From Rhizophagus irregularis (taxonomy: Eukaryota > Glomeromycota > Glomeromycetes > Glomerales > Glomeraceae), in assembly GCF_026210795.1 (NCBI RefSeq), contig NC_089435.1, positions 868,001 to 932,000 of the forward strand: a DNA stretch of 64,000 nucleotides, written 5' to 3'. This document shows, one piece after another, positions 4,032-53,888 of the stretch (positions are counted from its first letter, which is position 1; the number at the start of each line of letters is the position of its first letter). Under the pieces are notes generated by a model that saw only the letters and a list, made by a program, of their open reading frames with translations, did no database searches and was not told the DNA's origin. The translations under genes were made by a program, and so were the position numbers.

Positions 4032-6940
4032 TTTAAATTTTTAAAAGTAAACATTAAAACAGTAGAAAATTTGAAAAAGAAATATTCGGACATTTTTATA
4101 CTTTCTTAAGAGATACGGAAAATAATAAATCCTTTTTTTTTTGATGCAGCTATAAATACCGTGCAAACATTACTGTAACACCTAAGCACCTAAGATTATA
4201 GGGGTCGTTGTCACACATTATTCCTCGTTTATAAGGTAAAGTTTTCTTTAAGATGCATAAGTTCCGTATCCAATTAATTTCCTTTGAGTTGTAATATAAT
4301 CCCTTTAATGTCGAAAATATACCAGCAACGAGATGAATAAATAGAATAAATAAGTATTTTTTTTATTATCATTTTATGATGGAGCTTGTCAACCTCACTT
4401 TTTTAAATATGAATTTCAAACTGAAGTTGATCAAGTCTTACGTAAGATGGTTCGAGATTCAAATTTTTTAATCACATTATTTGAAAAATTGTATTAAACG
4501 TGGGGATTTCCGATCCAGATTTCTTCCAGCATCTGAAAGTTCTTTACGAGCGAAACCAATAAAGAAATAAAATAAAACCTCCATAAATGCGTAGTAGGTG
4601 GACATTGTACAACGGAACTGCGCATTGAAGTATCTCGGAAAGTCTAGTTGTCTTTGTAAGTTTAAAAAGAACATCGAGAATCCCCCAACAAGGGGAGAAG
4701 ATTGTGACTTTTCCTGGAGAGTTGTATTCCCGTTAAAATTCCAGGAGTTGCAACGGTAGATATAATTGCGGGAAACTTAGATATATCGAGAATTTTATGA
4801 AATTCTTTGTAAATGCTTGATATTCTTATGCTTTTTATGCTTTTATATCTGTTTTAATTTAGCACATTAATGATTCATTGTTAATGCAACTTTGGAAATT
4901 CATGATAATAATATTAAACAAGAAAAAGTCTTATCAACCTTTTGGAAATAAAAAAAATACATCCGTAATTTATTACTTGTCAAAGTACAATCGGAATTCT
5001 TAATGTCTGAATCAAATATTTAAATATTTAGATAATGACTAATTTTCATAGGGGAGAAGACCTTTGTAGTTTGTGATTATAAAAGGTGATCGGGCAAGAA
5101 TTTATTTTTAGAACTAAAATGAAAAATAATAGAATTCATAAATCAACTTTTTTTTCTCCTTTGTTTTCTCAATTTTCTTAGCTTTCTTGACTTTTTGGAC
5201 TGACATCTTCAACGCCCAAACCGGTTTCTTCAAGTTCAAGGAAGTCGCATCATGCTTTCAACATTCCTCTTCAAAGAATTTCCAAAACATTTCAGACATC
5301 ATGTCAAGGTCAAACACGTGACTATAACAGTCTAATAAACGCCTTACAAATGATGATATATGATTGAACAAAATCATAAGAGAATGATGTTATAAAGATG
5401 TTATAAACTTTTCTTCATTCTGAAGTGAAAGGATTATTTTTTAAAAATCGTCCATCTGAGTCTTATTGGGTTTAAATCATGTTCTTTGGCACCTTTCTTA
5501 TTTCTTTATTGTTGCGCCTCATCATTGAGATTATTACTGAGACCATTGGCGGTCACTTCCAGTTGTCTCCATCATCTGAATCAATATAATCTTTAATAAA
5601 TTTAAGTTGGTTAAATATTCTCTGAGATCCTATTATCCGTTATCCTTGTTCGTGATATCGATTTTTACATAGGTGATATCCATTATTATTGGTAGTTTTA
5701 TGTTAAGCTGAAACATGAATGTCGTGAACTTGTTTGTTTTGTGTTGGATATGCAAAAATTATCAAATGTTGATAATATTCGATTTGCACAAAATTTCCAT
5801 AAGAAATGCTACCTGGATCTTAAATGTCCACAAGAGGCAATCATAAGAAATTGAATTATTTGACATTTTGACTGATTAAAGGTTTTTTTCATCGATTCCA
5901 ATTCTCTATTATTTTTTATAAATAAAATAAAAAATATAAAGAATGATAAGAAAAGAAAGAAAAAAATAAAGAATTTAATAAAAAATTAAAAAATAAAAGA
6001 AAATAAATAGTAGAAATATCAAGAATTAAAAGAAAAGATAAAAGATTTTAATATTTTGTATTAGTTATTTACGGGGCGCATGAAAAGTAGGTTTGAAGGA
6101 GGGAAAAGAAATAGGTAAGGATATTAAGGTGACAAATTGCGTGACGACCGTATAATGATTTTTTTTTTTAGAAATAAAAAATAATGTTTTATTACACAAG
6201 GTTGACATGTGATTCCTATATTTTAACCAATATTGTATATATTAAAAAATAAACGTGTTTCACAGAATTTTGCTAAGTTAAATAATCATTACATCATATT
6301 TTTTTGCGCCAATTTAAAAATAAGTAGTATGTTTTGTAAAATTTATGCCGCGCCATCATTACTTGGTAAGGTTATGTATTTTATTCTTTTATCCTTTAAT
6401 TTTTTAATAGCAAAAGAAAGATTGCAAGTGAAATTATAGTGAATGCAATCAATGGTCAAATGTTTTTATTTGTAAAAGCTATGCTACATATTATAAATTA
6501 AATAATCAGGTATTAATTATGTACTTTGTCCTAATAATAAATTACATATTCAATAATAAAATAAATATTAACAATTATATATATACATATGATAATATGA
6601 TGATTTTTTTTTTTTTAAAAAAAAAAATAAAAAAAATAAAAAATGTTTAAATTCTATATAACAAAGGAATTTTTTTTTAAAAAAAAATTATTGAATTATT
6701 TCGCGAATTTTTTTCGTATGTTAGTCCATCAAAAATATTATGACAATTTTTGTCCAAAACTTCCGGTATCTGTATGCTTTTCATACAGACTATACTCGTT
6801 TTTTCAACAGGGAAATGATTTTATCAACGATGTAGTCAAATGATTATTAGAGAGGAGGATCATCTAAAGAATTGCAGTTGTATCAGTAAGTGATGAAACA
6901 TGAATACAAATATATCTCCTGAATGATTTGGAAATAGAAA
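4032..6940. other. Gene-poor A+T-rich spacer with possible gene fragments
   Basis: No gene that I can support. A plus-strand stretch at about 5693-5854 stays open for some 50 codons (QKLSNVDNIRFAQNF... type composition), is preceded by an AG and ends in TGA. It looks like a decayed exon of unknown origin. A 65-codon open stretch on the minus strand at 4477-4674 is not recognisable. The rest is homopolymer-rich. Confidence 0.4.
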
Positions 6941-6945
6941 GAATA

Positions 6946-9741
6946 TTAAAGTTCTTTACCATCTGGAAATTCGCGGTTATCATCATCATCTGCTGCAAAG
7001 TTAATAGCATGAGTATCAGAATAGAACATTATCGAACAAGAAAAAAATTTTCTTACCATCCAGAATTTCATGGTCATCATCATCTGTTGCAAAGTTAAAA
7101 TTGGCGTGAGTATTAAAGATAGAACTTGAATAAATAAGAAAAAAAATGTTACCGTCTGGAATTTCATAACCATCGTCATCTTTATGTTAAAATGATAAAA
7201 TAGGGTAAGTATCAGGATAGAGTATGGACAAGTAAGAAAAAAAGAATTGTATAAGTTTCATACCATCCGAAAGTTCCTTACTATCATCCGGAAGTTCTTT
7301 GCTAATGCCTATAAAGTAAAGTGCGTGAATGTCAGAACAGAGCACGAACAAATAAGAAAAAAGTATATAAAAATTTCTTACCATCCGGAGGTTCTTTGTT
7401 GTCGTTCAGAAGTTCTCTGCTATCATCCGGAAGTTCTTTGCTAATGACTGTAAAGTAAAAATGCGTGAATGTCAGAACGGAGCACGAACAAATTAAAAAA
7501 GTATATAAAATTTCTTACCATCCGGAGATTCTTTGTTATCATTCAAAAGTTCTTTGCTATCATCCAGAAGTTCTTTGCTAATGTCTGTAAAGTAAAGGTG
7601 CGTGAGTATTAGGACTGAGATGAATAATTAAGATGAATACAAAAGTTCATACCATTTGGAAGTTCTTTGCTAATGTCTGTAAAGTAAAAGTGCGTGAATG
7701 TCAGAACAGAGCACGAACAAATAAAAAAGTATATAAAAATTTCTTACCATCCGGAGATTCTTTGTTATCATTCAAAAGTTCTTTGCTATCATCCAGAAGT
7801 TCTTTGCTAATGTCTGTAAAGTAAAGGTTCGTGAGTATTAGGACTGAGATGAATAATTAAGATGAATGTGAAAGTTCATACTATCTGGAAGTTCTTTGCT
7901 AATGCCTGTAAAGTAAAAGCGCGTGAGTGGATTGAGCATGAAAAATTATTAAAAGAATGCAAAAGTTGTTTACCATCCGGAAGTTCTTTACTATCATCTT
8001 GAGATTCTTTGCTAATGTCTATATATAGTAAAATGCATGTCAGCATAGGACATAAGCAAAATAAGAAAAAAAATTGTAAAGATTCCTTACCGTCGGGACT
8101 ATCGTTATTATCTACAAATTAAAAAGATGAATGAATATAAATATAGAATAAACAAATAAATAAAAAAGTAGATTTCCATTACCATCTAAAAGTTCATCAT
8201 CAATATCTGCAAAGCAAAAACACGTTAGGTGTTAAGATGAAAATGAGAAAATAAGAAATACTGTATGTAGTATAAATTTTCTTACCTGGAAGTTCACGAT
8301 CTTGATCATCATCAACTTCTGCAAAAGTTAAAATTGGATGAGTTTCAATATAGGGCACGAACAAATAAGATATGATTTAAGAATTTACCTGCAGATGGTT
8401 CTTGCGGTTTAGGAGGTGGATTATATATTTTTGCACGATATCTTCTGTCCTCTTTGCTTTTTTCATCATCAGCTTCCTCAAATTGTTTCGCTTCCTCATC
8501 ATTGCGGCTCACCTCAGTAGGAAACCAACCAAGAACGGATTGCCATTCCATTATTTTTTCTTTAATATCTAGCGCAGTTGGCCGTTTTTGTGGATCACTA
8601 TTCCAACAATTTCTTATCAAAGTTGCATAACATTCAGGCATTTCTTTGGGAATGTTAGGTCTTCGACCTCTCTTGATCTGATCGGCAAGTGCTTCATCAT
8701 CGGCGAGATCTGCATAAGGTTTTTCACCAGTTCCCACTTCCCATAAGATCATTGCAAAGCTATAAATATCAGATGCTTCAGAGTATGGATTTTTATTTAA
8801 TACTTCAGGAGCAATGTAAGGTGTGACACCAATAATTTTTTCCGTTTTTTCTTCACTGGCTTGTTTAGATAACCCCAAGTCGGTAATTCGTGAGGGATAC
8901 AGAAGATCTTTGAACTGCAAAATATTTCCAGTATGGAGATCACGATGTGTCATACCAGTCACATGAATTATTTCTAAGCCCGCGACTATGTTTCGAAGAA
9001 TATCAAGTTTCCGACGCCAATATAATTTAGCTTTGTTATTTTGAAGATATGTTCGTAAATCACCATTTTCAGCGAATTCCATTACTATTGCATAATCTTT
9101 TGTATCCGGATTTTGAGTGATACCGAGATAGCTAATAAGATGACGACTAGCACATTTAAAATATGCTTCAAGCTGCAAATTGAATTGTTTAATAAGTTAA
9201 TTAAAAAAATGGTGGCATAATACAATTAATGACATTAATAACGTTGAAATATGTATATGATTATATAATGATATAATACCTCAGTGATAAAATTATCACT
9301 AATATTGTCCTTCATAGTTTTTATAACAACTTGCATTTTTCCTTGTCTATGCCATTGTTTTTTATTATGATTCCATCGTACAACATAACCATTTATCCAA
9401 GTTGCCAGAGATATTGTTCCAAAACCACCTTCAGCAAAATCTTTTTTGTCTATTTCAAGATCTTCATAGGGAATCCATTCAAGAAAAAGGATAGTGTTAA
9501 TAAGGGAAGGCCTAACGTATTTAACTAATTTGTCAATTTTTTCGTTTCCGCATGACCAATTTTCATATTCTTTTTGATATCGCTCTTGAATACAAGGTTG
9601 GCAAGGGAGTTTGTCTATTTTACACTGATTACATTTTGAACAGTTGTGCGGCATTGGCCTACGTAGAAAATCAAGATATGAAAAACAAGAACGTGCTTTG
9701 ACTCCTTTCTTTCCTATTGTGAAAGGATTTGTAAAATACAT
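6946..9741 (-). CDS. TKL-type protein kinase with a C-terminal tail built from 13 phase-1 microexons
   Basis: Fifteen exons (minus): 9280-9741, 8389-9172, then 8286-8318, 8183-8206, 8091-8111, 7974-8018, 7882-7905, 7748-7813, 7653-7676, 7519-7584, 7382-7447, 7264-7308, 7153-7179, 7057-7083, 6946-6989. The sum is 1758 nt, 585 aa. The N-terminus carries a cysteine-rich knuckle (CSKCNQC...CQPC). The kinase domain has a GGFGT loop, VVIKT lysine, HRDLHTGNIL catalytic loop, DLG in place of DFG, and PYIAPEVL, so catalysis looks intact. Residues 416-585 are an acidic repeat tail (DISKELPDD type), each unit its own exon. The last exon could use either of two tandem CAG acceptors (6989 or 6992). The start is the first ATG; a second in-frame ATG at 9654 is possible. 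Substrate is unknown. Paralogs lie at 13362, 31507 and 41210. Confidence 0.8.
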
Positions 9742-10805
9742 GTTTTTAAAATTAAATAAGACAAGAAGAGAAACGAAGAATTATTTTATAGGTTACCCAA
9801 TTTATAAATTCATTAACATACACAATTTGATAACAAATTCTTATTGGAAGGAAGAAATTTCTGAACATGCTACAAATAGGAGATTCCTTTTTTGGAATGG
9901 CATGATTGGGATGAATTGATCAACAAAAACAAATAATTCTTTATAAAGTTTCTTTATTTCTCAATTTCATTTTTAAGCTGAATAAGCACAATTGCCACAA
10001 AAAGTTTATAATTAATCATTTTCATTCGAATAATAAATAATAAATTTAGTTATTTTTTTTAGGATAAGGTGATTTATTTAATTATTTACGGAATCCAAGG
10101 CCGCTCATATTGCTATTATGTGTCACACTGTGAAGTTATCCGTTGCACAATTTAATTACAATGAAAAAAATTTGGCGTTTTAAGGAGAGAACATTCTGGG
10201 CAAAACCACAGAAATATCCAAATTTGTCAAATTGGCTTAAATTCTTTAAATTTTTGTTTATTTTTTTATTTACATACACGGAGTGAGTTTATGCGAGTGT
10301 TACAGAATTGCATGCATTGTTGGATTTGTTTGTAAATTAAATTAAATTAATTAAAAATATTTAGTGTTTACATTTTTTTATATAAATAGAATATATAATA
10401 AAGCCAAATCTTAAAAGAGTATTATTGGTTATTTACCAGCAAAATAATTTTTATTATATTTTCGATCGTTGAAATTATAAAAGATTATATATTATAATAA
10501 AATCTTTTTCATCAATTCTTTTTATTTGGTATAATGAAGACAAATTTAACAAGCAAATGATTATTACTATAATTATAATTCTTTATTATATAAAAAAAGG
10601 AAAAAGTTTCAGAATTTGTAGAATTTGTTTGGAAATGGAGATCAGCTCATCAGCATGTGTAACAAATTTATTTTTTCTAGAGAGTGGAACGGTATGAATG
10701 GATGCCGTGTTCCATTTAATAGATATCATATAAATGACTGAATAGATTTTAAAAATTATTTAATTATTTTATTTAATTATTATATTGTAAAAGAAAACAA
10801 TTATC
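9742..10805. other. Divergent intergenic region between two kinase-family genes
   Basis: About 1.06 kb separates the start of the minus-strand TKL kinase from the plus-strand MLKL-like gene, so it must hold both promoters. A TATATAAAT-like stretch lies near 10380. No other feature was recognised. Confidence 0.4.
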
Positions 10806-13157
10806 ATGAAAGAAACATTTTCTAGTTTTACCGTTGATATGTCAGAGTGCGTTAAAGATCATGGAATAAATATTATACAAACAACCGCAGATATTATTCA
10901 AAATTTAGAACCACATTTTGATATAGCAATTAAAATAGCATCTTATATATTAGTTATTTATGATAAAGCTAAAACTAATAAAAAAATTTGTAGAGTATTT
11001 GCTGATAGAGTAGATTTAGCTTTAACATCAATAAAATATTTACAAAGGCATATTGATAAAAATATTGAAAAATTTCATGAAAAAAGTTATTTTGAAAGTT
11101 TTATGCATTTTATTGAAGTATTAGAACATATTAAAAATTTTGTTGAAGAAGTTTCTGAATTTAAAGGTTTTAAAAAATTTTTCGTTGCTAGTGTTGTTAA
11201 TCAACAACTTAATGAAATTAGAGATGATTTTGATAATTGTTATAAATCATTACAACTTGCTATTGCTATTGATGATGTTGTTAATCGTGAAAATGAAAAT
11301 GAAGAGATAAAAAGTGATTTAAGTCAATTAAAAGGTTTTTTTGAAGATATTAAACATAGTTTTAATATAACTGATCAAAAATTATCAATTATTACTGCAA
11401 AAATTGAAATGTTGGAAAAAAATTCTTCGATTTTGGATAAATCGAAACCGCCTACAATTGGTCCGGAAAATCTTATAGTACCAGAAGATATCATAGAACG
11501 TAATAGTGTTGTATTAAGAAAATATAGAAATTTGGATGTCGCTTGTAAGCCAACTAAATATTCAACTGACGATAATAATCCAGAATCAAAAAAAGCTGGT
11601 GCAACTTTAACGATTTGGAATGAATTAAGTGAATGTCCTTATATAATTAAATTTCTTGGAGTTTCAAATTTGGATATTTATAATGAAAATGTTACGGTTC
11701 TAGAATGGGCTGAATTTGGAGATTTAAAAAGTCTTTATGAGAGTAAGAATCTTAATTGGAAACTTAAATTAAGTATGGCGAGAGATGTTTTTCGTGGTCT
11801 TTGTTTCTTGAATCATATTCGTAAGTTCCATTTATTTTATTAATTGCCGGTATTTTACGTCCGTGAACTAATTTCATATGAATAATAGGTGTTTTACATC
11901 ATGATGTTAGATGTGAAAATATTTTGGTAAGTTCTTTGATTCATCAATATACTCTAATTACTCTATGTTGAATTTATATTTAATTTATATATTTTAAATA
12001 CTGTAGGTGGTTGAAGGATTTAAATGTAAAATAACAAATTTTACTTTAAGTCGTAAAACACAATATGTAACTTCCAAAGTACATGATGGTGAGAGTGTGA
12101 AACAAATGATGCGTTGGATGGCTCCTGAGAAACTTAAACCTTATCAAAAATCAAATCAAAATACGAAGATAGAACCATATACTTATGCATGTGAAATGTT
12201 TAGGTATGTCGAACGAATTGGCTAAAAAAGATTAAAAAAAATAAATCTTTTAAAATTCTTTCCTTTTTTTTTTTTTATAGTTTTGGAATGCTTCTTTGGG
12301 AACTTTCTTTTAATAGAGTACCATATAAAGATATGGAATATGAATATGATGAAATAGTTGAACATGTTATGAGTGGAAAACGAGAAACGTTAAACTTTGT
12401 AAATTGTCCACCTGATATAATTGATGGTTTCACCGAAATTATTACATCGGCATGGCAGCATGAAAATCGTAAACGTCCATCAACCCAAAAGGTCTCAAAA
12501 ATTCTTGAATCATTATATAAATCTCATGAAAATAATTTGTTAAATTTAAATGAAGAAACAAATTATGAACCTCAAAAATCTCAAGAAAGTTCTTTTACTA
12601 CCTCTACCATTTCTACCAATAATAACGCTATTGAAGTTGTTAATAAACATGTCATTGATCTTTTACCATTATCAGATGGTATTGAACATCATAATACAAA
12701 GGCTAAGAGAACAAAATCAAAACAAGATTATAAAATTTGTTGGGAATGTTTCAATGCACATGCAAATATTGGTAATAAAACGGCTATGTATTGGAAAGGT
12801 CTTTATTTATGGAAAGGTTTTGTTGAAAAGAATCAAATTGAAGCAAAAAAATTATTTAAAATTGCAGCTGACGCTGGAATGGCTGATGCTCAATTGGAAT
12901 ATGCTTTTGCTTATGATAGTAAGAATCTTAAAAATCCTGATTTACCTTTTGATAAAAAAGAATGTTGGAAATATTTAAATATGGCCGCTGAAAATAATAA
13001 TTCTATAGCATTATACCACGTAGGTATTACTTATTATAACGGAAAAATGGGAGTAAAACAAGATAAAGAAAAAGGTATTGGATATCTTAAACTTTCCGCT
13101 TTACAAGATAATCCTAAAGCAATTGAAACATTAGATAAACACGGAATTAATCTTTAA
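10806..13157 (+). CDS. MLKL-like helical domain + pseudokinase + Sel1 repeats
   Basis: Four exons: 10806-11820, 11889-11926, 12007-12203, 12281-13157; 2127 nt, 708 aa. Residues 1-150 are almost wholly helical and resemble the four-helix bundle of MLKL/HeLo-type proteins. A coiled-coil-like brace follows (about 155-208). The kinase-like domain (about 225-490) keeps a VACK lysine (K248) and HHD (342-344) with CEN, and WMAPE, but has no glycine-rich loop. The DFG site reads NFT (362-364), so the metal-binding Asp is Asn and weak or no catalysis is predicted. Two to three Sel1/TPR-like repeats close the protein (about 545-705; GLYLWKGFVEKNQIEAKKLF and YYNGKMGVKQDKEKGIGYL). Known: MLKL uses a pseudokinase to gate a membrane-permeabilising helical bundle in necroptosis, and fungal HeLo-type proteins execute cell death. 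Inferred: a similar switch is possible here, but a scaffold role is equally compatible. Confidence 0.75.
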
Positions 13158-28989: not shown

Positions 28990-30535
28990 TATAGAAAGTA
29001 AGTAACGGAAATTGGCAAAGTAACGTAAAGTCACATGATCTATTACGTTACTTCTCTTATATAAGGTACGGAACGTAAATTTTTTTGGTAAATACTTAAC
29101 GCTACTCCTTATATTTGCCACATAATCACGTCATGTTTATTTGTTTATCAAATCTCGTTTTCAATATAGGTTCATTTCCTCGGTTCCTTCCGGTTCTGCA
29201 ATTAAGGTTCAGTTGTTTTTTTATTTCATTTCAGTTCTAAAATTAATAAAGGTATTTTTTTTATTTTTTTTATTTTTTTTTATTTCGTTTTTATCTTATA
29301 TTTCGTTTCTTACTAACTTCATTTTTTTTTACTTTATGGTTTATTTTTACTTGGTTTCCTATCATTACCCAACCTCCTATCATGATCATTTTTTTATTTT
29401 TTGTCTCTCATCATTTTCACCTCATATTACTTCTCATTATTCGTCTCCCATTATTTCTATTACATCTTTTTATTTTCCATTATTTCTTTTTCTCTCCTGT
29501 TTACTTCCTATCATTTCTTTTTGTTTCTCATCACTTCCTTTCGTCTTCCATCACTCCTCTTTGTCTCCAATCACTTCTTTTCGTCTCCCATCTCTCCTTT
29601 TCGTCTCTCATCACTTCTTTTCGTCTCCCATCACTCCTCTTTATCTCCCATCACTTCTTTTCGTCTCCCATCACTCCTATCACTTCTTTTCGTTTCCAAT
29701 CACTCCTTTTCGTCTCCCATCATTTCTTTTTGTCTCTCATCACTTCTTTTCGTCTCCCATCTCTCCTTTTCGTCTTCCATCTCTCCTTTTCGTCTTCCAT
29801 CTCTCCTTTTCGTCTCTCATCACTTCTTTTCGTCTCCCATCTCTCCTCTTTGTCACCCATCATTTCTTTTCGTCTCTCATTACTCATCTTCGTCTCCCAT
29901 CACTCCTTTTTATCTCTCATCATGTTCTATTTCTCCTTTTTGTTTCCTATCACTTCTCATTGCTCTTTTTTACTCCCTTTCATCTTCTATTACTTTCCAT
30001 TACTCCATTGTTATTTCATTTTTTTATTAGCATCTTTTTCCTTGATCATTATAATTTACTTATCTTTTTTATTTATTGTTATTGTTTTTTTTATTTTGTA
30101 TCACTTCATTAAAAATAATTAAATAAACATGGTGATTATTTCTTTAAAATCTAAAACGTGTGACTTAAATTTTAATATTTACGAATAAAATTTCATTAAA
30201 TAAGATTATTTTGAATTAAATATGTTTGCAAAAAAAATTTTTTAAAAATATCTTCGCAATAAAATTTTAAGTTTAACCGATCAAAATTAGCTAAGTTAAA
30301 ATGATCAGATCAGCTATCAGCCGATTCTCTATATATTGTGCATCATGTGACAATTGTGGACTTCAAAAAAAACCCAGACGATGATCGATGATCGCCCAGG
30401 CAACCCTATATTATTTTCTGTACCTTACTTATATAAGGGGAATATAATTGACTTTACGCTCCGTGAGGGAGTAACCTAAAATAGTAATATTACGTTACTT
30501 ACTTAGCCAATTTCCGTTACTCACTTACTACCTGC
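28990..30535. mobile_element. Non-coding TIR element with a pyrimidine minisatellite core (copy 1)
   Basis: The left end (28997-29030) AGTAAGTAACGGAAATTGGC is matched inversely at the right end (30488-30528, GCCAATTTCCGTTACT). Both ends also carry ATATAAGG and ACGTTACT words. The core (29520-29920) is a 20-bp tandem repeat of the type TTTTCGTCTCCCATCACTTC on a pyrimidine strand. All three plus frames stay open there because a pyrimidine-only strand can hardly form stop codons, so these are not genes. Related DNA occurs at 52975-53888 and 55890-56065. Exact ends and target duplication are unclear. Confidence 0.65.
29520..29925. repeat. 20-bp pyrimidine minisatellite
   Basis: About 20 degenerate copies of CGTCTCCCATCACTTCTTTT. 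Strong strand asymmetry (purine-poor plus strand) makes triplex formation conceivable. Confidence 0.85.
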
Positions 30536-31506
30536 CGATAAAACAACATCTATAATATTTTAAAAATATTTTAAAACTAATAATTTTTATAAAATTGTCT
30601 ATTTTTTACATTTTTCAAATAATATAACTAATTCACATTAATTTATTATACATATTATAGGAACTTTAAACTCAAACTGATTGTAAAACATATGTACTTT
30701 CAATTTTACAATAAAAATCCCAGAAATTATTGTGTAAAGTGGATCCACAACGGATATTATCAATATTATCAGAGTCATATTTAATATATTTTGGCTTAAA
30801 AGAAGACCAAATTATTGTATAGAAAAAATTTTTTAATGTTTGTCCCCAATCATATTGTGACTTATGTAATGCTTATGTAAATCAAAAAATTAAACATGTT
30901 GATTATATAAATTTTAGAGCGCAGTAAATTTGTGTCACATGAAGATCTTATGACACAGCTGAACAAAATGGATCACGTATTAATTAAGTAAAAACTTATG
31001 GCGTAGAATGTAGTTTTGCTAAGTGAAATTAATTTGCCATCTGAAATTTCAAGTTCAAAATAATATTATCTAACTATGATAGAAAAAGCGACTATTTATC
31101 TATTGATTTTAACAACTACCCCAGTCGCACCGACAAAAATTTAGCACTACGGCATTATGCATGAACACGTGAAATAAACAAATAAGATTTTACCTACTCA
31201 AAAAAAAAAAACCTAAGTCCCTCAGATGAATAGAAACCTGACGGGGCGACGCCGGCGACGGGGCGTGCTGTCTGTGATGATCGCTAAATTTTTATCGGTG
31301 CACTGGACTGGTTGATTTTTAACTCAATGCAGATCACTTACCGGAAAAAATATGACCCAAAAAAAATCAATTTTATTTATTTATTTTTATTATTACTTCT
31401 TCTTTTGGTAAAATATTCCTTTTTTGTAACTCATTCACGATGATTTAAAAATTTTGTCAAAAAAAAAAATAAATTCTTTCAATAAAATAAGTTTCTAAAT
31501 TATAAA
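30536..31506. other. Spacer holding a small GC-rich inverted-repeat element
   Basis: At 31121-31306 the words CAGTCGCACCGACAAAAATT and the near complement ending CGGTGCACTG face each other across about 140 bp, including a GC-rich island (about 31238-31272, GGGGCGACGCCGGCGACGGG). No clear target duplication. The remaining DNA is probably the promoter of the next gene. Confidence 0.45.
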
Positions 31507-34500
31507 ATGGAAACGAAATTTAGCAATTTAAATATCAAAAATTGTTTATATTGCAATAACCCTTTTACTAAAGAATTATGGTGTAAAGAATGCATTAATT
31601 CTTTAGAAAAATTAGCAGAAAATGGTAATAAAGAAGCAATGTTCAATTTAACCATACATTATGGAAATGGAATGGAAAAGAATTTAGAAAAAGCCTTTTA
31701 TTGGTATCAAAAAGCAGCAGAAAATGGTCTTAAAGATGCAATGCTTAATTTAGCCATACATTATGAAGGTGAAGAAGAAACAGAAATGAATTTTGAAAAA
31801 GCCTTTCATTGGCATCAAAAAGCAGCAGAAAAAGATCATATTAAAGCAATTATTAATTTGGCCATATTTTATAAAAATGGAAAACAAACAGAAAAGAATA
31901 GTGAAAAAGTCTTTTATTGTTATCTAAAAGTATTTACTTTAGCCCTACGTTATGAAAATGGAGAAGGAACAGTAAAGAATTTAGGAAAAGCCTATTATTG
32001 GTATCAAAAAGCAGTAGAAAATGGTAATGAAGAAACAATGCTTACTTTAGCCATGCGTTATGAAAATGGAGAAGGAACAGAAAAGAATTTAGATAAAGCC
32101 TTTTATTGGTATCAAAAAGCAGCAGAAAATAATTTTATTATTGCAATGGTGTATTTAGCCTTTTGTTATAAAAATGGAAAAGGAACAGAAAAGAATTTAG
32201 AAAAAACCTTTTATTGGTATCATAAAGTAGCAGAAAGGGGTATTAATGAAGTAATGCTTATTTTAGCTATACGTTATGAAAATGGAGAAGGAACAGAAAA
32301 AAATTTAGAAAAAGCCTTTTATTGGTATCAAAAAGCAGCAGAAAATGGTTGCACTGATACAATGTTTAATTTAGCCATATGTTATGAAAATGGAAAAGGA
32401 ACAGAAAAGAATTTAGAAAAAGCCTTCTATTGGTATCAAAAAGCAGCTGAAAATGGTATTAAAGAAGCAATGATCATTTTAGCCTTATTTTATGAAAATG
32501 GAGAAGGAACCGAAAAGAATTTTGAAAAAGCCTTTTATTGGTTTCAAAAAGCAGCAGAAAATGGCTTTATTATTGCAATGTCTATTTTAGCCATATATTA
32601 TATAATTGGAAAAGGAACAGAAAAAAATTTAGAAAAAGCCTTTTATTGGTATCAAAAAGCAGCAGAAAATGGTGTTAAAAAGGTAATGTTTAATGTGGTC
32701 AATAGATATTATAATGGAGAAGGAACAGAAACGAATTTCGAAAAAGCTTTTTATTGGTATCAAAAAGCAGCGGAAAATGGTGTTAAAGAAGCAATGATTA
32801 ATTTGGCCATATGTTATAAAAATGGAGAAGGAACTGAAAAAAATTTAGGAGAAGCCTTTTATTGGTATCAAAAAGCAGCAGAAAATGGTGTTAAAGAAGC
32901 AATGATTAATTTGGCCATATGTTATAAAAATGGAGAAGGAACTGAAAAGAATTTAGAAAAAGCCTTTCATTGGTTTCAAAAAGTAGCAGAAAATGGTATT
33001 AAAGAAGCAATGCTTATTTTAGCCTTATGTTATGAAAATGGAGAAGGAACAGAGAAGAATTTAGAAAAAGCCTTTTATTGGTTTCAAAAAGCAGCAGAAA
33101 ATGATTATACTGATGCAATGTTTAACTTAGCCATATGTTATGAAAATGGAGAAGGAACAGAAAAGAATTTAGAAAAAGCCTTTTATTGGTATCAAAAAGC
33201 AGCAGAAAATGGTATTAAAGAAGCAATGACTATTTTAGCCTTCTACTATGAAAATGGAAAAGGAACAGAAAAGAATTTAGAAAAAGCCTTTTATTGGTAC
33301 CAAAAAGCAGCAAAAAATGGTTTTAATATTGCAATGTCTATTTTAATTGTATATTATGAAATTGGAAAAGGAACAGAAAAGAATTTGGAAAAGGTCTTTT
33401 ATTGGTATCAAAAAGCAGCAGAATATGGTGATAGTGAAGCAATGTTTAATTTAGCCAATAGGTATTATAATATAGAAAGATCTGAAAAGAATTTAGAAAA
33501 AGCTTTTTATTGGTATCAAAAAGCGGCAGAAAATGGTGTTAAAGAAGCAATGTTTAGTTTGGCCATACGTTATAATAATGGAGAAGGAACAGAAGAGAAT
33601 TTAGATAAAGCCTTTTATTGGTATCAAAAAGCAGCAGAAAATGGTCACACTGATGCAATGTTTAGTTTGGCCATATGTTATAAAAATGGAAAAGGAACAG
33701 AAAAGAAATTAAATGAGGCTTTTTATTGGTATCTAAAAGCAGTGGAAAATGGTCACACTGTTGCAATGTTTAATTTAGCCATATGTTATAAAAATGGAAA
33801 TGGATCAGAAAAGAATATAGATAAAGCTTTTTATTGGTATCAAAAATCAGCAGAAAATAGTATTAAAGAAGCAATGTTTAGTTTAGCTATTTGTTATTAT
33901 AATGGAGAAGGAACAGAAAAGAATTTAGAAAAAGCCTTTTATTGGTATCAAAAAGCAGCAGAAAAAGATCATATTGAAGCAATGAATAATTTAGCCACAT
34001 GTTATGACAATGGAGAAGGAACAGAAAAGAATTTAGAAAAAGCTTTTTATTGGTATCAAAAAGTAGCAGAAAGTAATAAAGTGAACCCCAATACTAAAGT
34101 TGAATTATGTAATGAATGCAAACAACCATACACTGATTATCAGTGGTGTCAACAATGTAATGCTAAACAATTTCAACAAGATTTTTCAAAATGGACTAGT
34201 AAAAATAAGTTTATTGATAAATTTATTCGAGAAGCACAATCAAATGCTAAAAATAGTTATGAAATTTTGGAATGGATACCATATGATAAACTGTCAAGTA
34301 TTAATTATTATGATAAAGGAGGATTCAGTGAAATTCATAAAGCTATCTGGTTAGATGGACCTATTTTTAGTTGGAATTTTGACAAAAAACAATGGAATAG
34401 ATGTAATTTTCAAACAGGTTACGAGGTTATTCTTAAAACACTTAATAATTCATCAAATTTAAATAATAAATTTCTTGAGGAGGTATGTTATTTATATTAT

Positions 34501-35444
34501 TTAATATCAAATTTTATTTTCTCTTGCAAAAATTTAATAATTTATTATTATTTATATAGTGGAAATATCATTATAACTGTCAGAAAAAATCATTTTCAAA
34601 GTTTATTCAATTCTTTGGAATTACTCAAGATCCAAATAGTTTAAATTATATAGTAGTAATGAGTTATGCAAAAAAAGGAAGTTTGAGAAAATGCTTATCT
34701 GATATAATTAAGTTTAAGTGGCAAGACAAATTACAATTATTAAAAAAAATTATATTAGGACTTAAAGTAATCCATGAATCAAATTTAACTCATGGTGATT
34801 TTCATGATGGCAATATTTTAATGTCAGATAATCATAATGAATTATTTATTATTGATTTAGGATTATGTAAACCTATAAATGATTCACAGGATTCTGATAA
34901 TGAAATTTATGGAGTTTTACCTTATATGGCGCCTGAAATATTAAGATATAATCCCTATACTCCAGCAAGTGATATTTATAGTTTTTCAATGATAATGTGG
35001 GAATTTACATCAGGTATTCCCCCATTTAAATATGAAGCACATGATCATGATCTGATCTTGAGTATTTGTAAAGGAGAACGTCCTGAAATTATAAAAAATA
35101 CTCCAAAATGTTATGTGGATTTAATGAAAAAATGTTGGGATTCAAATCCTGCCAATAGACCAACTATAATAATGCTTGAGAATATTATATCTGAATGGAT
35201 TGAATGTATTAGTGATTATTATAGAATAAACAGGGATGGAAATTATATATTTGATGTACCTAATATTGATAATCAATTAAAAGATGTTATGTTGGAATTT
35301 GTTATAGCAAACAAATCTTTATCACAGGAACAAGTAAATCCTTCTATTACACAATCTCATCCACAAGCACATTATACAAGTCGCAAGCTTGCTGAAATTT
35401 TAGTTCAAGAGACTCAGGGTTTTGAATGTGTAATTGAAGATTAA
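31507..35444 (+). CDS. Sel1-repeat / TKL kinase fusion protein
   Basis: Two exons: 31507-34482 and 34560-35444; 1286 aa. An N-terminal CLYCNNPF...WCKEC knuckle precedes about 23 Sel1 units of 36 residues (consensus EKAFYWYQKAAENG then NGEGTEKNL), one of them truncated (unit 3). A second knuckle (CNECKQPY...WCQQC, about 865-885) leads into a kinase domain (about 895-1190) with KGGFSEI loop, VILKT lysine, THGDFHDGNIL (HGD keeps the Asp), IDLGL and PYMAPEIL, so activity is plausible. A conserved HYTSRKL motif lies near the C-terminus. Sel1 arrays are alpha-solenoid scaffolds; a role as a cytoplasmic signalling scaffold kinase is inferred. The repeats are highly alike at DNA level (108-bp units), so the copy number may vary between strains or be mis-assembled. 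A Sel1-only relative sits at 49571. Confidence 0.88.
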
Positions 35445-49570: not shown

Positions 49571-51025
49571 ATGGGAACTAAATATAGTAATTTTAATATT
49601 TCAGATAAAGATACTGATACAGCAAGCACTGCTAATTGTTTATATTGCAATAAACCTTTTATTGAAAAATTATGGTGCAAAGAATGTATTAACTCTCTAG
49701 AAAAATTAGCAGAAAATGGCGATAAAAAAGCAATGAATAATTTAGCCAATAGGTATTATAATGGAGAAGGAACAAAAAAGAATTTAGAAAAAGCCTTTTA
49801 TTGGTATCAAAAAGCAGCAGAAAATGGTGTTAAAGAAGGAATGCATAATTTAGCTATTTGTTATAATAATGGAAAAGGAACAGAAAAGAATTTAGAAAAA
49901 GCATTTCATTTGTATCAAAAAGCAGCAGAAAATGGTGTTATAAAATCAATGATGTATTTAGCTATTTGTTATTATAATGGAAAAGGAACAGTAAAGAATT
50001 TAGAAAAAGCCTTTCATTGGTTTCAAAAAGCAGCAGAAAATGGTATTAAAGAAGCAATGTTTATTTTAGCCGCATGTCATAAAATTGGAGAAGGAACAGA
50101 AAAGAATTTAGAAAAAGCCTTTTACTGGTATCAAAAAGCAGTGGAAAATGGTTATACTGATGCAATGTATAATTTGGCTGTTTGTTATGAAAATGGAGAA
50201 GGAATAGAAAAGAATTTAGAAAAGGCCTTTTACTGGTATCAAAAAGCATCAGAAAATGGTGTTAATAAAGAAGCTATGTTTAATTTAGCCACACTTTTTA
50301 AAAATGGAGAAGGAACAGTAAAGAATTTAGAAAAAGCCTTTTATTGGTATCAAAAAGCAGCAGAAAATGGTGATGAAAAAGCAATGTTTAATTTAGCCAT
50401 ATGTAATTATTATGGAGAAGGAACAGTAAAGAATTTAGAAAAAGCCTTTTACTGGTATCAAAAAGCAGCAGAAAATGGTATTAAGAAAGCAATGTCTATT
50501 TTAGCCATATGTTATAAAAATGGAGAAGGAACAGAAAAGAATTTAGAAAAAGCCTTTCATTGGTTTCAAAAAGCAGCAGAAAATGGTGTTAAAGAAGCCA
50601 TGTTTAATTTAGCCACACTTTTTAAAAATGGAGAAGGAACAGTAAAAAATTTAGAAAAAGCCTTTTATTGGTATCAAAAAGCTTCAGAAAATGGTGTTAA
50701 AGAAGCAATGTTTAATTTAGCCATTTGTTATGAAAATGAAAAGAATTTAGAAAAAGCCTTTTATTGGTATCAAAAGGCAGCAGAAAATGGTGTTAAAGAA
50801 GGAATGCATAATTTAGCTATCTGTTATTATAATGGGGAAGGAACAGAAAAGAATTTAGAAAAAGCCCTTTATTGGCATCAAAATGCAGTGAAAAATGGAA
50901 ATGGAAAAGCAATGTTTAATTTAGCTAGATATTATGAAGATGGCAAAGGAATAGAAAAGAATTCAGAAAAAGCCTTTTATTGGTATCAAAAAGCAGCAGA
51001 AAAGATTATATTTACACCATTATAA
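49571..51025 (+). CDS. Sel1-repeat protein without kinase domain
   Basis: Single exon, 484 aa. The start MGTKYSNFNI and the CLYCNKPF...WCKECINSLEKLAENG knuckle match the N-terminus of the 1286-aa fusion protein closely. About 12 Sel1 units follow (EKAFYWYQKAAENG consensus), unit 10 shortened by loss of NGEGT. The frame ends inside a repeat (QKAAEKIIFTPL, stop), exactly where the fusion protein would continue, so this looks like a truncated duplicate that lost the kinase half, or a natural scaffold-only paralog. Expected to be a soluble alpha-solenoid. Repeat sequences are so similar to the locus at 31507 that gene conversion is plausible. Confidence 0.85.
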   Translation: MGTKYSNFNISDKDTDTASTANCLYCNKPFIEKLWCKECINSLEKLAENGDKKAMNNLANRYYNGEGTKKNLEKAFYWYQKAAENGVKEGMHNLAICYNNGKGTEKNLEKAFHLYQKAAENGVIKSMMYLAICYYNGKGTVKNLEKAFHWFQKAAENGIKEAMFILAACHKIGEGTEKNLEKAFYWYQKAVENGYTDAMYNLAVCYENGEGIEKNLEKAFYWYQKASENGVNKEAMFNLATLFKNGEGTVKNLEKAFYWYQKAAENGDEKAMFNLAICNYYGEGTVKNLEKAFYWYQKAAENGIKKAMSILAICYKNGEGTEKNLEKAFHWFQKAAENGVKEAMFNLATLFKNGEGTVKNLEKAFYWYQKASENGVKEAMFNLAICYENEKNLEKAFYWYQKAAENGVKEGMHNLAICYYNGEGTEKNLEKALYWHQNAVKNGNGKAMFNLARYYEDGKGIEKNSEKAFYWYQKAAEKIIFTPL

Positions 51026-51750: not shown

Positions 51751-52975
51751 CAGTTTACGACATAAATATTCGGAATTTTTATTTTTATGCATAAAGGAAT
51801 GCTGTCATACCAAGTCTTGTGCAACCAAAATAATAATTAAAATGGAAGTTGATCAGCCCTTTTTAAACATAAATATAGCGTGAAAAATTCTCACCTGATT
51901 GTTTATCAGCAGCAAAATAAAATCATGGCACCCACTTCGGTATTTGAAATGCAAAGGTTGACTGTTAAGGAGCTATGGGATAATAATATACGAAAACCCT
52001 CTGAAATAATTAAAATGACTGGTTTTCCAAAGTCTACAGTATATGACATTATCAATCGTCTAAAAAAACAGGAAGTGTTGAACACTTACCCGTTCCTGGT
52101 CGTCCTCTTGTTCTGACACCAAAAAAACGTCGATATCTTGGCCGTCTTCTTAAAAATGATAATGCAACAACTTCAGCTTTAATGACAACAAAGCTGAATA
52201 ATTTGTATCCAGATCTTAATGTATCAACCTGAACTGTACAACGTACTCTTAAAAATAAACTTAATTATATTGTTTGTAGACCATGGTCTGTTCCTCTTCT
52301 TAAAGAAAGTCATGTTGAAGCTCATCTTCAATGGGCCTTAAATCACATCCAAGATGACTGGACTCACACAATTTTTTCGGATGAAAGTACATTTCAGACG
52401 TTTCATAATACTCAAATTGTACGTTACAAGGCTGGAAACCCACATCCAGTACATCCTATGGTAAAACATCCATATAAGGTTCATGTTTGGGGTGCATTTT
52501 GCCGCCAAGGGCCAATTGGAGTTGCATTATTTACAGAAAACATGAATTCTGCTAAATACCGTGAAATCCTTCAATCTCAACTACTTCCTAATGCTTATCA
52601 TGCTGGTTATGGATGGAATTTTCAGCAGGACAATGCGCCAATGCATACCGCGAAGCTTACTCATCAATTTTTTGTGATTAATAATGTTCCGGTTATTGAT
52701 TGGCCTGCAAACTCACCTGACTTGAACCCCATCGAAAATTTATGGGCGATTCTTAAAGAAAATGTAGAAAGAAGGGTTAATAATTGGGTTATGAAAAAAA
52801 AATCACTTGGTGCTAATGATTTTCAAGGCATAATTCAGCAAGAATGGGATAATATTGATAAAAATCTCTTCTTTAGTTTAGCAGATAGCATGTCAGATCG
52901 GATTAACATGGTCATAGAAAATAATGGTTATACGATAAATTACTAACTTTTAAAGTATGTTTATCTGCACATCTT
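51751..52975 (+). pseudogene. Tc1-type (DD34E) transposase, broken
   Basis: A possible left end CAGTTTACGACATAAATATT follows a TA at 51749. Coding runs from about 51880 (or ATG 51925) to TAA 52944: an HTH (KPSEIIKMTGFPKSTVYDII), PVPGRPLVLTPKKR, then the DDE core FSDEST, NFQQDNAPMH and NSPDLNPIENLW, with 34 residues between the second Asp and the Glu. Two lesions: a frameshift near 52068 (LKK / GSVEHLP) and an in-frame TGA near 52230 (NVST, stop, TVQR). The right terminal repeat is missing; pyrimidine minisatellite begins about 30 bp after the stop codon. Tc1 elements move by cut-and-paste at TA sites; this copy should be inactive. Confidence 0.88.
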
Positions 52976-53888
52976 AAGCTATTTCGTCTCCCATCATTCC
53001 TTTTCGTCTCCCATCACTCCTCTTCGTCTTCCATCACTTCTCTTCGTCTCCAATTACTCCTCTTCGTCTCCCATCACTCCTTTTCATTTCCCATCACTCC
53101 TCTTCGTCTCTTACCATTTCTCTTTGTCTTACATTACTTCTCTTCGTTCCCAATCATTCCTCTTCGTCTCCCATCACTTCTTTTCGTCTCCCATTACTCC
53201 TCTTCGTCTCTAATCACTCCTTTTCATCTTTCCATCACCCCTTTTCGTCTCCCATCACCCCTCTTCCCATCACCCCCTTTTCATCTCTCATCACCCCTCT
53301 TCGTCTTCCCATCACTTCTTTTCGTCTATCATCACTCTTTTTCATCATCTATCATGTCCTATTTTTCCTTTTTGTTTCCTATCACTTCTCATTACTCTTT
53401 TTTACTCCCTTTCTTCTTCTATTATTTTCCATTACTCCATTGTTATTTCATTTTTTTATTAGCATCTTTCTCCTTGATCATTGTAATTTACTTATCTTTT
53501 TTATTTATTGTTATTGTTTTTTTATTTGTATCACTTCATTAAAAATAATACAGTGATTTTTTACTTTAAAATCAAAAATGTGGGACTTAAATTTTAATAT
53601 TTGCAAATAAAATTTCATTAAATAAGATTATTTTGAATAAATATATTTGCAAAAAAAATTTTTAAAAATATCTTTGCAATAAAATTTTAAGTTTAATGGA
53701 TCAAAAATTAGCCAAGAAAAAAATCAGCCATCAGTCGATTAATAAATTTACTTTATATATTGTACATCATGTGACATATTGAAAAAAACCCCAGATGATC
53801 CGTGCCTTATATAAGGGAGTAACGTAAATTGACCTAAAATAGTAATTTTACGTTACTTATTTAGCCAATTTCTGTTACTTACTTGCTA
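52976..53888. mobile_element. Pyrimidine-minisatellite TIR element, copy 2 (5' truncated)
   Basis: Minisatellite TTTTCGTCTCCCATCACTCC (52982-53340), then a unique part nearly identical to 29930-30290 of copy 1 (shared TCCTTGATCATT, TTTATTTATTGTTATTG), then the right end ACGTTACTTATTTAGCCAAT. The end continues after the nested 900-bp element as CCTACTG at 54797, equivalent to CCTGCC in copy 1. Confidence 0.75.

Follow-up and report, generated by a model that had tools for sequence, protein, structure and literature searches.

In the C-terminal tail of a kinase gene of Rhizophagus irregularis, exon duplication, which recurs in an expanded family of kinases, has reached an extreme. Our preferred reading, to which we give a probability of about 0.72, is that this tail consists of tandemly duplicated exon-intron units which are mostly joined into one fully spliced mRNA, with constitutive splicing and with exon birth and death in the DNA. 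The gene lies in a window of 64,000 nucleotides (C7:868001-932000), whose numbering is used below unless a contig is named.

A kinase gene with a tail of microexons

The spliced model spans 9741-6847 on the minus strand and encodes 586 residues, 171 of which form the tail. Kinase exon 1 (9281..9741, minus strand) is an open frame that ends at the donor GAG/GTATTA (the slash marks the exon border) and contains a cysteine-rich N-terminal part and the start of the kinase domain; its proposed ATG at 9741 is a guess among the in-frame ATGs. Kinase exon 2 (8389..9172, minus strand) closes the kinase part and ends in phase 1 (CCATCTGCAG/GTAAAT). Residues 100-360 of the spliced protein match the Pfam profile PF07714 (PK_Tyr_Ser-Thr) from position 5 to 257 of 258 with an E value of 2.7e-48, a match over the domain that assigns the protein to this family. 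VVIK, HRDLHTGN and DLG stand at what we take to be the expected positions of the lysine, HRD and DFG motifs, and the catalytic activity is putative.

Thirteen internal exons bounded by GT and AG follow from 8318 to 6960 (all on the minus strand), each with a length that is a multiple of 3 and each with phase-1 borders. They fall into two types. Those at either end are rich in D: e1 (8286..8318, 33 nt, EVDDDQDRELP), e2 (8183..8206, 24 nt, DIDDELLD) and e3 (8091..8111, 21 nt, DNNDSPD) at the start, and e11 (7153..7179, 27 nt, DDDGYEIPD; acceptor AAAG and a weak donor, GTAACA), e12 (7057..7083, 27 nt, DDDDHEILD) and e13 (6960..6989, 30 nt, DDDDNREFPD; a CAGCAG tandem acceptor) at the end. The ISKEL type is limited to e4-e10: e4 (7974..8018, 45 nt, DISKESQDDSKELPD), e5 (7882..7905, 24 nt, GISKELPD), e6 (7748..7813, 66 nt, NISKELLDDSKELLNDNKESPD), e7 (7653..7676, 24 nt, DISKELPN), e8 (7519..7584, 66 nt, DISKELLDDSKELLNDNKESPD), e9 (7382..7447, 66 nt, VISKELPDDSRELLNDNKEPPD) and e10 (7264..7308, 45 nt, GISKELPDDSKELSD; acceptor uncertain, 7308 or 7280). 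The terminal exon e14 (6847..6863, 17 nt) reads DDPPL before a stop, its acceptor having been picked by the splice-chain search described below. Together these exons give the tail 70 D and E against 17 K and R, a net charge of -53.

An earlier note on this DNA had described 13 microexons of 21-66 nt in a kinase tail, with phase-1 borders and lengths divisible by 3, and both the anatomy and the kinase context are right. It had counted twelve of them as internal; e13 carries a donor of its own (GATG/GTAAAG) and is therefore internal as well, which makes all 13 internal, and the terminal exon at 6863-6847 had been overlooked. The interval that it gave was too short for a gene that extends over 9741-6847, and its acidic units of the DISKELPDD type describe e4-e10, not the D-rich e1-e3 and e11-e13. 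Its proposal that any exon could be skipped without a frameshift holds on paper, given the lengths and phases of all 13.

To score the chain of exons, we derived splice matrices from 23 introns that do not belong to the array: 11 interrupt kinase domains at other loci, and the tails of the two loci L075 and L077 supplied 12. Starting from kinase exon 2, the search returned 14 introns and a score of 70.2. In 200 dinucleotide shuffles the scores had a median of 3.9 and a 95% point of 8.9 and peaked at 13.1, with no chain of more than three introns; a second set of shuffles (n=100) reached 12.4. These data confirm that the microexon array is real, beyond chance. The chain recovers e1-e9 and e11-e13 exactly and agrees with our model on e10's donor and e14's acceptor. 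As acceptor of e10 it selects the AG at 7280, which leaves an exon of 17 nt and puts the sequence downstream out of frame. The all-phase-1 model, with the acceptor at 7308, scores 69.1, practically equal to 70.2, and the choice of 7308 is for this reason a judgement; we prefer it because the resulting exon resembles its neighbours and because CTGAC stands 23 nt upstream. Under a stricter penalty (10), some exons were merged and the score fell to 45.1. Acceptor scores range from 1.2 to 8.7, and several of them are low, as is the score of one donor, that of e11, on matrices drawn from 23 introns only.

Introns measure 67-84 nt among e1-e13, 70 nt before e1 (i0) and 96 nt after e13 (i13). Their retention is predicted to bring a premature stop in 4-44 codons in 12 of the 14 cases, with i3 and i11 keeping the frame. 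Retaining the 96-nt last intron yields an end that reads GKEL before the stop, which is the end that the earlier note had taken; an ER-retention reading of this KEL end was dropped because the end arises solely in that way.

Growth of the array by duplication

Several features of the array bear on how it grew. The clearest is a 229-nt unit, e5-i5-e6-i6 (7677..7905, minus strand), which is directly followed by its copy e7-i7-e8-i8 (7448-7676, 229 nt): the two differ at 9 of 228 aligned bases and by 2 gaps on the scale of one base, e6 and e8 are identical in DNA, i5 and i7 differ at 4 of 68 positions, and i6 and i8 at 2 of 70 with 2 gaps. In this youngest duplicate, exons (3/90) and introns (6/138) differ at about equal rates. 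The pair thus has both sequence marks of tandem exon duplication, namely homologous neighbouring exons (e5-i6 versus e7-i8) and flanking introns copied along with them (i5/i7 and i6/i8), the second of which is weak for i1-i3. We also considered a mosaic origin, in which e6-i6 would be a hybrid of two units, and rejected it, since the gapped alignment of i6 and i8 leaves only those 2 differences in 70 and 2 gaps, and a plain 229-nt copy suffices.

In a joint alignment of the introns, i0 and i4-i12 are 60-94% alike, while i1-i3 are 46-69% like the rest of i0-i12 and the unrelated-looking i13 is 46-57% like any other. Because the values for i1-i3 come close to those for i13, support is weak for deriving e2 and e3 from the same duplication; the difference in intron similarity makes duplication clear for e4-e12 and weaker for e1-e3. 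A 49-nt stretch over e1 and its flank is 71% like one over e12. Since exons and introns are alike in register over most of the array, we conclude that it grew by tandem exon-intron duplication.

Within the ISKEL group, the first 20 exon bases of e4-e10 differ at 52 of 420 sites with no gaps over the 21 pairs, whereas the introns that follow these exons differ at 255 of 1427 with 93 gaps, a contrast that consists mostly of indels and comes from pooled pairs that are not independent. No frame-breaking indel is seen in the exons. ISKEL exons are 24, 45 or 66 nt long, that is 24 + 21k, which points to a step of 7 residues (21 nt) nested inside some of them.

A paralogue without the array

About 4.1 Mb away, at C7:4.957 Mb, lies a paralogous block with the same kinase and, as judged by eye, the same Sel1-like neighbour gene, 85% identical across 1718 aligned positions. 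A comparison of 261 codons in kinase exon 2 gives a dN of 0.055 and a dS of 0.219, and on these sequence-based estimates the kinase is under purifying selection. The paralogue's tail has two short exons and reads EVDQDCRELPDIVNK before a stop, behind which an ISK-like relic and an e14-like stretch can be read by eye, followed by a flank that matches window 6734-6846, just past e14, at 81%. The array is thus missing between parts that match, and about 1.1 kb must have been gained here or lost there.

The duplicated two-gene block corresponds to about 6734-13157 of the window, with kinase and Sel1-like gene in the same arrangement on one chromosome. Long single-exon Sel1-like repeat proteins were also read by eye at 31486-34644 and 49571-51025 (plus strand), the first of which runs into a kinase-like N-terminal part. 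Elsewhere in the window, at 29126-30122 and 52925-53556 (plus strand), two or three phases are open at once with low-complexity translations of the SLLFVSHH type; these are probably tandem repeats, not genes. The kinase next to the focal gene in tandem (15001 to about 13360, read downwards) carries an acidic EELEE tail encoded by a single exon, which one phase-1 intron precedes.

Tail exons in related kinases

Kinase and Sel1 genes are expanded in the 149.75-Mb assembly of R. irregularis, according to excerpts of PMC6123716 and PMC8647823. We searched a genome of 146.7 Mb in 32 contigs for tails of the same style. A pattern search for a second ISKEL array across this genome found none: it gave 62 matches as compared to 56 for the control, 7 of them in the array and 55 single. 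A protein search with the whole tail (E up to 10) returned 10 rows, five within the array and five at four other places with E values of 0.2-6.1, as taken from the match list alone. These searches turned up no ISKEL array in the assembly besides the focal one.

Tails of comparable style nevertheless recur. At least 141 kinase matches were obtained when 150 of 1432 candidates were scored, 138 of them besides the focal gene, its paralogue and its neighbour, and we examined the tails of 47 of these 138 (27 listed loci and 20 fetched). In 14 of the 47, a chain with two or more introns scored above the best of 50 shuffles (L040 barely), as against about one expected by chance; among these 14 tails, 11 open with a phase-1 intron and 3 with a phase-0 intron. 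Repeated homologous tail exons were recognised by eye in 3 of the 47: L054 (C14:1807287; tail exons of 105, 105 and 72 nt), L062 (C14:1767556; 102 and 102 nt) and L038 (C2:569003), which repeats exon pairs whose single exons are not frame-neutral. Copies of a YISxELEFDIN-like unit number about four in L054 and three in L062; L045, L050, L063 and L081 have a single one each, and unit number is thus seen to vary among related kinases. Of 33 stretches that follow kinase domains, 13 (that of the focal gene included) contain DNA self-repeats, many of which lie outside predicted exons.

A further group of tails is built on a 12-nt exon. L075 (C6:1543900-1545500), taken together with L078, matches PF07714 (E 1.9e-28) and is thereby a kinase; its tail has seven phase-1 introns and includes a 12-nt phase-1 exon coding for EEQE that was also read by eye in L076 and L077, two presumed kinase tails. 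This exon with its borders matches 184 places in the genome as compared to 1 for the reversed pattern, and the tail end E-x-P-D-G/GTA matches 124 as compared to 3 for its control, both counts being pattern matches alone. Of the 62 listed non-focal places of the second pattern on contigs C1-C7, 42 are preceded on the same strand by the 12-nt exon at a distance of no more than 2.5 kb. The EEQE places are apparently tails of a large kinase subfamily.

L038, L054, L062 and L075-L077 resemble the focal gene in entering the tail in phase 1 and in their small tail exons, repeated in L038, L054 and L062; they differ from it in having other unit sequences, 3-4 units or exon pairs, and tails that are not dominated by acidic ISKEL units. 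The earlier note had called the exon repetition unusual for a kinase tail. That is fair for the number of exons and for the ISKEL repeat, but other kinases related to it in this genome also have small or repeated tail exons.

Discussion

Together, these findings suggest a simple route. Short exon-intron units would have been duplicated in tandem, repeatedly, behind a phase-1 junction, with finer growth in 21-nt (7-residue) steps inside some exons. Because every exon is a multiple of 3 between phase-1 introns, units can be added or removed without disturbing the frame, and tail length and negative charge could change at the DNA level without damage. The product would be one main mRNA with all exons included, giving the long acidic tail, which is probably disordered. 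We infer that the gene is expressed and constitutively spliced, and that the tail may act in binding or self-regulation through its length and charge.

Alternatively, as the earlier note had proposed, the exons could form a cassette array, skipped and included in many combinations to yield many tail lengths and charges from one gene. Every combination would be in frame, acceptor strengths vary widely, and the tandem acceptor of e13 would suit such a scheme. Frame neutrality, however, is expected of any surviving duplicated phase-1 unit whether skipping is regulated or not, and the exon pairs of L038 are repeated although neither exon is frame-neutral alone. The introns are short (67-96 nt), and exon skipping is described as comparatively low in fungi in an excerpt of PMC6142364. 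We rank constitutive splicing above this alternative because frame-neutral units explain tolerated growth with no need of regulated skipping, and because of that comparatively low level of skipping in fungi; a cassette array appears unlikely.

Less likely still is a decaying tail, either partially read through or consisting of non-coding tandem repeats past the true end of a shorter gene, with exon-like borders inherited from an older state. The paralogue, whose tail stops after two exons and which keeps relics of the array alone, speaks for it, as do the weak or ambiguous splice sites of e10 and e11. Against it, all 13 exons are open and multiples of 3, gaps fall in introns, and kinase exon 2 is under purifying selection. 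The least plausible explanation, that the mutually similar introns are introner-like mobile insertions into an older intronless heptad repeat, would fit the unit junctions (GATGAT) that lack an intron inside some exons, but we place it last because positions 6900-8400, compared as DNA with the whole genome, hit only the array itself and the paralogue (a lower bound, as very common words were skipped) where an introner would put one intron sequence in many unrelated genes, and because exons and introns were copied jointly in the 229-nt unit.

For the expanded kinase family of this fungal lineage, we tentatively suggest a wider reading: tails may evolve by birth and death of small, frame-neutral units whose sequences (ISKELPD, YISxELEFDIN, SKLISxSL) differ between subfamilies and whose number varies between paralogues, some arrays perhaps being sampled by splicing to give many tail lengths and charges per gene. 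If transcribed as read, the gene offers a small natural model for changing the length and charge of a kinase tail one whole exon at a time with the frame intact, and relatives that carry one, three, four or more units can be set directly beside it. If true, this would connect the expansion known for AM fungal kinases with a specific, testable route by which their non-catalytic parts diverge, and would raise the question of animal-style exon skipping in a fungus. No description of tail exon arrays in this fungus turned up in the literature searched.

Comparable architectures exist in other systems. Titin PEVK and tropoelastin also encode a repetitive, disordered stretch in many small symmetric exons; these, by contrast, are animal structural proteins with known alternative splicing. 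The micro-exon genes (MEGs) of Schistosoma share with the tail an abundance of very short, symmetric exons that can each be skipped in frame. As described in an excerpt of PMC5825161, their exons of 6-36 bp make up about 80% of the coding region and the products are nearly always secreted or membrane-anchored; here, the protein is mostly kinase, the tail accounts for 171 of 586 residues, and exons reach 66 nt, with 5 of the 13 internal tail exons longer than 36 nt. SP7-like effectors come from the same kind of fungus and carry hydrophilic repeats, 6-11 of them and imperfect, behind a signal peptide and with a conserved intron before the first repeat (PMC11333574, in part); in our gene an intron splits nearly every unit and the repeats sit on a kinase, and membership in that group was set aside on account of the kinase domain in place of the SP7 layout. 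Tandem exon duplication is also comparable, as treated in part of PMC9741552, where neighbouring exons likewise arise by duplication of an exon with its intron: there, the choice is a mutually exclusive one between few exons of human genes, whereas here 13 microexons follow one another.
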